This document shows, in pieces, positions 35,925 to 37,898 of a stretch of DNA of 38,375 bases. The first letter of the stretch is position 1, and each line of letters opens with the position of its first letter. This DNA comes from Phycisphaerae bacterium. Its GTDB lineage: Bacteria; Planctomycetota; Phycisphaerae; UBA1845. Where the stretch lies: the NCBI GenBank assembly GCA_030429365.1, contig JAUIEW010000016.1, positions 1 to 38,375 of the forward strand, in the 5' to 3' direction. The position numbers were made by a program, and so were the translations under genes. The notes under the pieces are model-generated. The model worked only from the letters and a program-made list of their open reading frames with translations. It had not been told where the DNA came from and ran no database searches.

Positions 35925-36983
35925 ATGTCACCCATCAAGATCGGTAACATCCAGATCGAGCACCCGTTCACCCAAGCCGCCCTGAGCGGGTACAGCGACC
36001 TGCCCATGCGCCGCATCGCCCGGCGCTATGGCGCTTCCTACACGCTCAACGAAGTCGTCCTCGACAAAATGGTCCTCCAAAAAGGCAAGGGCCAAAAACG
36101 CATCCTCGCCCAGATCGAACCGCAGGATCAACCCGTCGGCGGGCAACTCATGGGTTCCGACCCCGATCAATTCGCGCCAGCCGCCCGCCTCCTTGCCGAC
36201 GCGGGATACAACGTCATCGACATCAACTTCGGATGCCCCGTGCGCAAAGTGCTCGGTCGTTGTCGCGGTGGATTCCTTCTATCGCAACCCGAACAAGCGC
36301 TCGACATCGTGCGCCGCGTTGTCGATGCGGTCGCCACCGACGTCCCCGTCACCGTCAAGATGCGCCGCGGACTCGACGACACGCCCGAAAGCGAACGCAA
36401 CTTCTTCGCCATCCTCGACGGCGCATTTGAAGCTGGTGTCTCCGGCGTGACCGTCCATGGCCGAACCGTTGAACAGCGCTACATAGGACCGAGTCGATGG
36501 GAGTTTTTGACCAAAGTCAAACGACACGTCGGCGATGGCCTGGTCTTTGGAAGCGGCGACCTTTTCACCGCGCAATCGTGCATCGACATGATGAATGAAA
36601 CCGGCGTCGATGGTGTGACCGTCGCGCGCGGCGCGATCGGCAACCCGTGGATCTTCGGCGAGTGCACCGCCCTCGCAACCAATCAACCGCTGCCCGATCC
36701 GCCAGGCATCACCGAGCAGCGCGAATGCATCGAAGCCCACTTCGCCGAATCCAGAGCCCACCACGGCGACGGGTTAGCCGGCAGACTCATGCGCAAGTTC
36801 GGCATCAAGTACAGCGAACTGCACCCGTGCAAGAAAGATGTCCGCGACGCATTCATCGCCGTCAAAACACCCGACGATTTCCTCGACGTGATGAACGACT
36901 GGTACGACAAGAACAAAGACTGGCCACCCGTAACCCGCCACGATGGAAAAGGCGACCTGGTAGCGGCCGGCGCTGTGTCCTGA
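35925..36983 (+). CDS. dus: tRNA-dihydrouridine synthase
   Basis: A 352-residue flavoenzyme that reduces uridine to dihydrouridine in tRNA. The FMN barrel starts MSPIKIGNIQIEHPFTQAALSGYSDLPMRR, has QLMGSDP (74-80), the block INFGCPVRKV with Cys104, then VTVKMRRGL, VHGRTVEQRYIGPSRW and VARGAIGNPWIF. The loop after Cys104 reads GRCRGGFLL, where most family members have a Gly-Ser-Ala-Leu-Leu type sequence, so it belongs to a divergent subgroup. Which of DusA, B or C it matches is not clear. ATG at 35925 begins the homologous sequence. A REP-like palindrome follows 6 bases after the stop. Confidence 0.92.
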   Translation: MSPIKIGNIQIEHPFTQAALSGYSDLPMRRIARRYGASYTLNEVVLDKMVLQKGKGQKRILAQIEPQDQPVGGQLMGSDPDQFAPAARLLADAGYNVIDINFGCPVRKVLGRCRGGFLLSQPEQALDIVRRVVDAVATDVPVTVKMRRGLDDTPESERNFFAILDGAFEAGVSGVTVHGRTVEQRYIGPSRWEFLTKVKRHVGDGLVFGSGDLFTAQSCIDMMNETGVDGVTVARGAIGNPWIFGECTALATNQPLPDPPGITEQRECIEAHFAESRAHHGDGLAGRLMRKFGIKYSELHPCKKDVRDAFIAVKTPDDFLDVMNDWYDKNKDWPPVTRHDGKGDLVAAGAVS

Positions 36984-36988
36984 AAAAT

Positions 36989-37009
36989 GTAGGGTCCGCT
37001 GTACGGACC
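36989..37009 (+). repeat. REP-like palindrome, family B, second copy
   Basis: GTAG followed by GGTCCG-CTGTA-CGGACC, 20 of 21 bases identical to 13041-13061. It begins 6 bases after the dus stop codon. Confidence 0.75.
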
Positions 37010-37206
37010 GTGCGTTTGCAGCGCCCCATATCCGCCACCAAATCAAAAGCGCGCAAAACCACTGGGTAATAGTTCCCAATTCCGGGCAAAAACGTTTCGT
37101 TTCTTGAAAATCGTCCCCAACCCGAACTCCCCACCAAGATTCCACGTCAGCCATAAACCTCTAAAAACAAAGCCTTTAAGACAATTCCCAACATGCGTTT
37201 TCCGAA

Positions 37207-37221
37207 TGGCACGCCCCTTGC
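37207..37221 (+). promoter_or_regulatory. Sigma-54 (RpoN) promoter, near-consensus
   Basis: TGGCACG-CCCC-TTGC fits the -24/-12 consensus TGGCACG-N4-TTGC at every specified base, with correct spacing between the GG and GC cores. The predicted transcript start is near 37233 on the plus strand. No protein-coding gene begins downstream on this strand before the terminator at 37429-37474. No sigma-54 activator gene is in the window and I found no clear activator site upstream. Confidence 0.65.
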
Positions 37222-37232
37222 CACTTATGACC

Positions 37233-37474
37233 AACGGTGGTGCGGAGTGGTTGGGTGAGCCGAAAAAATTTCGGCAAACCAGCCCGGCCCTGAAAGGTGG
37301 CCCCGACCAGCCGACAATAACCATTTATTTCCGTGGTGGCGTTCTGGGGAGCGCGTCGTTGCGGACTGAAGATGGTTGCGGATGTGAAAGCATCCGCAAT
37401 CGCAAATCGACAATGTCGGTTTGCAGATGGGGGGTGGCGCTCTTGGGGGAGATGCCGCCACTCCCCTTCTTTTT
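37233..37474 (+). ncRNA. Candidate sigma-54-dependent small RNA (about 240 nt)
   Basis: The interval lies between a near-consensus sigma-54 promoter and a strong intrinsic terminator on the same strand, inside a 489-base gap between the convergent dus and cREC genes. It contains two exact hairpins, GCCGAAA-AAA-TTTCGGC (37259-37275) and TTGCGGATG-TGAAAG-CATCCGCAA (37376-37399), plus the terminator stem. The in-frame ATG at 37227 lies upstream of the predicted start, and the other small frames run through the terminator or lack any recognisable protein character. I do not recognise the RNA family. The rest of the gap (37010-37206) holds nothing else that I can support. Confidence 0.45.
37429..37474 (+). 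terminator. Strong intrinsic terminator on the plus strand
   Basis: GGGGGGTGGCG (37429-37439) pairs with CGCCACTCCCC (37456-37466): an 11-bp stem with one G-U pair and a 16-base loop, followed by TTCTTTTT (37467-37474). Its T-run touches the stop codon of the convergent cREC gene. As it is 445 bases beyond the dus stop it more likely ends a separate transcript, namely the one from the sigma-54 promoter. Confidence 0.8.
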
Positions 37475-37898
37475 ATGCGCGGTGGGCGATTAACTTCTTC
37501 AACTCAATTCGCCAGGATGTTTCGATCCAATCGTCACCGATCGGCCCGACGCGTTCGACACGCCAGCCAGCATTTTGCAACAGATAGATCATCAGGTCGG
37601 CTCGCTCGACGTTTGAAGAGTGCACGATAGCCGGACACGCCGGTTCGCGCTCGGCAAGAAACTGCGCAACCATGGTTCCATCGCCCGGATCAACGTCATC
37701 ACATGGAGATTCCAAATCATGATCCAGGGAAATGAGGCACGCGCGCTGATGGAGCGCTTCGTATTCGCGCATGAACTCAGCCGCAGTCGGAAAAACGAAC
37801 ACGCGAATCGACGAATCGAATTCACCGAGCACCGCAGTCATCCGCTCGCGGCGAGATTGAGCATCCTCAAGGATCAGAATCAAACGTTCATTGGGCAT
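37473..37898 (-). CDS. Receiver-like protein of the cREC (cyclic-phosphate processing) type
   Basis: A 141-residue, single-domain protein with the Rossmann-like receiver order. The N-terminal acidic pair is in LILILEDAQSRRERM (E11, D12), and the third strand carries CLISLDHDLESP (D59-H60-D61), the LDHDL motif that separates the cREC group from ordinary response regulators. The fourth strand reads PAIVHSSNVERADLMIYLLQNAGW. In the literature cREC domains are predicted to handle cyclic phosphates, perhaps in RNA repair or conflict settings; no activity can be read from the sequence. It starts 18 bases after the 37917 gene, whose stop TAG is part of a possible AGGA ribosome site, so both are one operon. 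Confidence 0.7.
   Translation of the reverse strand: MPNERLILILEDAQSRRERMTAVLGEFDSSIRVFVFPTAAEFMREYEALHQRACLISLDHDLESPCDDVDPGDGTMVAQFLAEREPACPAIVHSSNVERADLMIYLLQNAGWRVERVGPIGDDWIETSWRIELKKLIAHRA

Follow-up and report, generated by a model that had tools for sequence, protein, structure and literature searches.

A conserved, structured RNA gene with a predicted sigma-54 promoter in a genus of Phycisphaerae, and a second RNA locus preceded by the same dyad-plus-box unit

The gap between the dus gene and the convergent cREC gene of this Phycisphaerae genome raises the question whether it holds a gene of its own and, if so, how that gene is switched on and what its product does. In the window, the stretch of 38,375 nucleotides that was analysed, the gap is bordered upstream by the dus stop at 36983 (Pfam Dus match, E 8e-61) and downstream by an open reading frame with a cREC domain at 37473-37898 (-). 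All evidence of the present study is computational. It points, with a probability of roughly 0.8, to a gene for a conserved, folded small RNA (RNA1) that has its own sigma-54 promoter and a putative activator site, is co-regulated with a second RNA (RNA2) and acts in trans.

Promoter, upstream dyad and fold of RNA1

The letters TGGCACGCCCCTTGC at 37207-37221 (+), inside the dus-cREC gap, represent a predicted sigma-54 promoter of the type TGGCAC-N5-TTGC (-24/-12). The first-pass annotation had regarded such a match as rare by chance, but this is not the case: the box alone is common, with 1.3 chance matches expected in the window if one mismatch is allowed, and in the whole genome there are 24 exact matches to the pattern versus 12 to the reversed control. 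What gives the match weight is its conservation and the dyad upstream of it, not the box sequence itself. Conservation of the -24/-12 elements in relatives, which the same annotation had named as a check, was indeed found, as TGGCAC-N5-TTGC is exact in five of five genomes of the genus. This genus includes Phycisphaerales bacterium UBA1845. The public record JANQQE010000021.1 (L046) is labelled 'Alphaproteobacteria bacterium isolate IP29b_bin.190'; its genome falls in this planctomycete genus, and the label looks wrong.

The expectation that an rpoN gene accompanies the promoter was confirmed in all four congeners but not in the source genome itself, a 5.2-Mb assembly of 455 contigs and 95% completeness that gave no match for rpoN (sigma-54 DNA-binding domain PF04552). 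PF04552 was present in 57 of the 60 genomes searched, and the source genome belongs to the three that lack it. Since 57 of the 59 other relatives, all four congeners among them, carry rpoN, its absence here is probably an assembly gap. We assume that RpoN is used at this promoter and that sigma-54 RNA polymerase would start RNA1 at about 37233, approximately 12 nt after the -12 element.

Further upstream, the sequence TGGGTAATAGTTCCCA at 37063-37078 (+) features a dyad of the form GGG-N8-CCC (37064-37077), 143 bp before the -24 box, which resembles an activator site. An enhancer-binding protein is presumably bound at this dyad and would activate RNA1 from there. A second, weaker half-site may be present in CTTGAAAATCGTCCCCAA at 37103-37120 (+); this assignment is tentative, with a PWM score of 9.1 at -104 in the window genome (G000) and weaker scores in the relatives. 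In four species the RNA1 dyad is located between -141 and -143; in G003 it is degenerate.

The pattern of conservation outlines these elements. Identity to the window in G001, G002, G004 and G003, in this order, amounts to 100, 89, 94 and 72% for the dyad but only to 86, 63, 61 and 42% for the spacer that follows it, and to 100, 89, 94 and 78% for the box but only to 100, 40, 50 and 50% between box and start. For the 3' domain of RNA1 the values are 99, 93, 94 and 78%, and just downstream of it 100, 62, 37 and 43%. G001 is about 98% identical to the window species and counts for little; this footprint rests on G002, G003 and G004.

RNA1 is predicted as a small RNA of about 242 nt at 37233-37474 (+). 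Its 5' domain (37233-37311, +) has a branched fold and is the variable part of the molecule, being 81-97% identical in three relatives and 39% identical in G003. It is followed by four hairpins on the same strand. Hairpin A (37324-37370) exposes GGGG at 37346-37349 in the invariant CUGGGGAG loop region, has 97.9% of cells paired and contains the likewise invariant GTTCTGGGGAGCGCGTC. Hairpin B (37374-37401; GGUUGCGGAUG ... CAUCCGCAAUC) has two pairs with compensatory changes, and hairpin C (37402-37424; GCAAAUCGAC ... GUCGGUUUGC) has 100% of cells paired and a loop that differs by single bases between species. Hairpin D (37425-37474) is the intrinsic terminator, formed by GGGGGGTGGCG ... CGCCACTCCCC and then TTCTTTTT, with GGGG at 37445-37448 in its invariant CUCUUGGGGGAGAUG loop region, 100% of cells paired and one pair changed on both sides; the transcript would end at this hairpin and its U-run, at 37474. 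The stretches that are invariant across the genus, GUUCUGGGGAGCGCGUC and GUGGCGCUCUUGGGGGAGAUG, include the two GGGG loops.

The fold of RNA1 in the window genome reaches -120 kcal/mol as compared to -91.5 +/- 5.3 for shuffled sequences (z = -5.4), and across the five genus genomes the z-scores range from -5.3 to -7.3. In the 3' domain, which comprises 60 pairs, 98.3% of cells are paired and four pairs are changed on both sides, so that the compensatory stem changes for which the first-pass annotation had suggested a search do exist. A control in which the partners were slid by 1-3 columns gave a pairing of only 41-58%; as the structure was built from the same sequences in which the pairing was counted, this control is biased in its favour. 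The box, the terminator and the two hairpins that had been noticed between them (37374-37401 and 37402-37424) are all real, to which the third hairpin at 37324-37370 and the folded 5' domain have to be added.

Box, RNA1 and terminator are present in all five genomes, that is, in the window genome and in all four others (G001-G004). Two conditions that the first-pass annotation had named as refuting, absence from close relatives and lack of rpoN, came out in its favour, the latter by virtue of the four congeners. The idea that the terminator was made for a separate transcript is in agreement with these results, which argue for a small RNA gene that stands alone, has a terminator of its own and is preceded by a conserved sigma-54 promoter. 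Rfam searches of the window at gathering thresholds gave no matching family, and a permissive search over the RNA1 region (E up to 10) gave chance-level matches only.

Outside the genus RNA1 was not detected. A covariance model (CM R1) found it throughout the genus and only there among 114 genomes of the order, the remainder giving chance scores only. A loop-pair pattern returned four genus contigs and unrelated chance records from all GTDB-species contigs, and nothing outside the genus in a class sample. The inspected matches to a loose terminator pattern outside the genus (L016-L019 and L027) lack the sigma-54/RNA architecture, and L016, L017, L018 and L027 appear to be coding sequence. RNA1 is sampled from a single genus with five genomes, one pair of which is 98% identical.

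A second RNA locus with the same unit

A search of the genus with the conserved upstream block TGGGNAATAGTTCCCAATTCCGGG revealed, besides RNA1, one extra site each in G000, G001 and G002, and the composite pattern of dyad and box added a copy in G004. In G001, G002 and G004, dyad and box occur together at exactly two loci, RNA1 and this second one, RNA2; in G000 the second locus is recognised by its dyad, and the -12 region of its RNA2 reads CATGC. G003 carries both RNA1 and RNA2, the dyads being equally distant there but degenerate. RNA2 is accordingly present in all five genomes (L088, from G000:C420:36616 onward, and L086, L087, L094 and L106). It has a length of about 290-400 nt in the genus, features repeated UU-GGGG-AA hairpins and ends in a nearly invariant terminator (GCCGCGGCCGAC...GTCGGTCGCGGC and a T-run). 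Its upstream neighbours vary: a shared open reading frame, GNAT-like by eye, is found in G000, G002 and G004, and a YidC-like one in G003. The RNA2 dyad lies about 144 bp before a TGGCAC-type box and thus at the same distance as before RNA1. We assume that RNA2 is driven by this dyad-plus-box unit in the same way as RNA1, in which case one signal would raise both RNAs.

With a covariance model built on the RNA2 terminator (CM R2), relatives were identified in five genomes of the same family (G018, G024, G035, G060 and G070) and in G043, which belongs to another family of the order. These relatives carry sigma-54-like boxes and mostly the GGG-N8-CCC dyad; the -12 element ends in TTGC in G035, G060 and G070, in GTGC in G024, in TTGG in G043 and in GTGT in G018. 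Further CM R2 matches (L116, L120 and L122-L126) were rejected, being either coding or located away from any sigma-54 box. No Rfam match was obtained for three RNA2 loci of the genus at E up to 1, nor for the relatives outside the genus. Taking RNA1 and RNA2 loci together, 14 of the upstream regions, which number 16, contain GGG-N8-CCC between -110 and -145, and only RNA1 of G003 and the G043 locus do not; the background frequency is 0.21 per kb. The consensus was derived from these 16 regions themselves, and the count is descriptive rather than an independent test.

In 114 genomes of the order the composite pattern retrieved only the RNA1 and RNA2 loci of the genus and one other place. The latter (L092, G105:C276:4798-4945) combines a dyad with TGGCATCGGGGTTGC shortly upstream of an apparent STAS-like protein gene; this may be a chance match, or the gene may belong to a related regulon as a member that encodes a protein. 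In genus g32, about 2.4 of the 5.25 Mb of G060 were scanned for dyad and box, and in this part only the known RNA2 and a single chance site turned up, with no second RNA. RNA1 and RNA2 share only matches of 9-12 nt and were rejected as sequence paralogs. They probably form a real two-RNA regulon under one switch.

Alternative explanations and possible mode of action

The neighbourhood of RNA1 suggests other explanations that have to be considered. The cREC stop codon lies inside the T-run of the window, and a cREC-like open reading frame ends at the same point in G002, as would be expected if RNA1 were a cis-antisense RNA or a shared terminator for the convergent gene. The first-pass annotation had in fact proposed pairing with the cREC mRNA. 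However, cREC and RNA1 overlap by a few bases only, at the terminator, and cREC adjoins RNA1 in G000 and G002, whereas G003 and G004 retain RNA1, box and terminator but have no cREC beside them. The proposed pairing is therefore not conserved, and we regard a cis function for cREC as very improbable. Hardly more can be said for the structured stretch being a processed 3' untranslated region of dus with a fortuitous sigma-54 match. It is true that dus precedes RNA1 in all four annotated genomes (G000, G002, G003 and G004) and that single sigma-54 boxes are common in the genome, but conservation covers box and dyad and leaves out the spacer and the segment between box and start, and RNA2 is preceded by the same dyad-box unit with no dus nearby. 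After the dus stop, at 36993-37009, there is a small perfect hairpin, GGTCCGCTGTACGGACC, and a similar one, GGTCCGCACAGCGGACC, follows dus in G004; their occurrence suggests a dispersed repeat or a dus terminator.

An open frame for 129 amino acids at 37104-37493 (+), 48% identical to one in G003, could in principle code for a small protein. Its frame begins upstream of the promoter, conservation tracks the stems, relatives do not keep the ATG at 37229, and single-base differences in loop length between species shift the frame. Because of these single-base indels and the non-conserved ATG the overlapping frame is excluded as the cause of conservation, and a coding function is extremely improbable.

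A separate small RNA is the preferred reading. RNA1 is not a leader, because the genes downstream of it vary between genomes and run toward RNA1 where they are close by. As it is not a leader and pairing with cREC is not conserved, RNA1 most likely acts in trans, presumably by means of its GGGG hairpin loops, which are invariant and exposed. These loops are similar to the repeated ones of RNA2 and, as in RNA2, closed by U-A/C-G pairs. Two alternatives are proposed. RNA1 could pair with C-rich stretches of mRNAs, or RNA1 and RNA2 could bind the same RNA-binding partner, with one of them titrating it. In 16 RNAs, 21 GGGG-loop hairpins with at least three pairs were counted against 3.8 expected (largest shuffle total 12). 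The excess comes mostly from RNA2, RNA1 containing one such hairpin with at least three pairs and one with two. Titration of a hitherto undescribed RNA-binding protein, or of a diverged CsrA paralog, by one RNA of the pair via repeated UU-GGGG-AA hairpins is a speculative possibility to which we attach limited weight; if true, it would represent a new type of recognition between small RNA and protein and the first sigma-54 small RNA circuit in Planctomycetota.

Decoys of the Csr/Rsm type, which titrate CsrA via GGA motifs in hairpin loops, deserve separate mention. Like CsrB/RsmZ, the two RNAs have G-rich hairpin loops (UGGGGA) and appear to be co-regulated, and CsrA is encoded in the genome, all five genus members carrying two csrA genes and most other relatives searched one. 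Unlike in CsrB/RsmZ, neither RNA1 nor RNA2 contains more GGA than its composition predicts, and ANGGA repeats are lacking: four of the five species have no such motif in RNA1, and the RNA2s of the genus contain one or two copies. Moreover, the flagellin leader that adjoins csrA in this genome contains CsrA-like sites of the ordinary kind (ACAAGGAUG, AAGGAGG), and therefore the CsrA of this lineage probably prefers a motif other than UUGGGGAA. The GGA and ANGGA counts do not support a CsrA-sponge role for RNA1, and we consider decoys of this type unlikely. The csrA copies of G000 are located at C329:11419-11574 and C275:8555-8710, the C275 copy directly upstream of a flagellin-like gene.

Comparison with known sigma-54-controlled small RNAs

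Small RNAs under sigma-54 control have so far been known mainly from Proteobacteria and Myxococcota. Our literature search found no report that combines a sigma-54-dependent small RNA with Planctomycetes or Planctomycetota, and a 2025 comparative survey of sigma-54 regulons that covers Planctomycetota does not mention small RNAs (PMC12316311). Two RNA families without Rfam entry, together with a predicted switch of dyad, -24/-12 box, RNA and terminator, offer a concrete starting point for work on post-transcriptional control in Planctomycetota. Further members can be sought with the dyad-plus-box rule.

RNA1 shares single features with several of the known systems. Qrr small RNAs have a length of about 100 nt and depend on Hfq. 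In Vibrio they are controlled by sigma-54 and the NtrC-type activator LuxO (PMC10162802). RNA1 similarly has a sigma-54 box and a putative activator site, but unlike Qrr it comprises about 242 nt and has no match in Rfam. Pxr of Myxococcus is a structured small RNA of several stems with an upstream sigma-54 promoter and adjoins the gene for a sigma-54 response regulator (PMC5568312); unlike RNA1 it has about 108 nt, and its sequence is unrelated. Neither RNA1 nor RNA2 has an identified activator gene next to it.

The overall organisation resembles two other systems more closely. CrcZ and CrcY are small RNAs that titrate an RNA-binding protein, and CrcZ carries A-rich Hfq/Crc motifs. In Pseudomonas they belong to the CbrB regulon, with an enhancer-binding protein and sigma-54 (PMC6296734). 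RNA1 is likewise a stand-alone RNA of a few hundred nucleotides with predicted control by an enhancer-binding protein and sigma-54; unlike the A-rich CrcZ it is G-rich and strongly folded. For GlmY and GlmZ of Enterobacteriaceae, the respective reports describe two separate small RNA loci with sigma-54 promoters and a common enhancer-binding protein, GlrR/QseF (PMC3844500, PMC6075780), and the interaction of both RNAs with RapZ, for which GlmY acts as a decoy (PMC7073468). RNA1 and RNA2, at two loci that share dyad and sigma-54 box, correspond to this arrangement in their presumed working only, the activator being a predicted one. They differ by the sequence of the activator site, by their occurrence in Planctomycetota and by having no Rfam match, so that no sequence relation to GlmY/GlmZ is detected. 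RNA1 and RNA2 are most likely organised like GlmY/GlmZ or CrcZ/CrcY.
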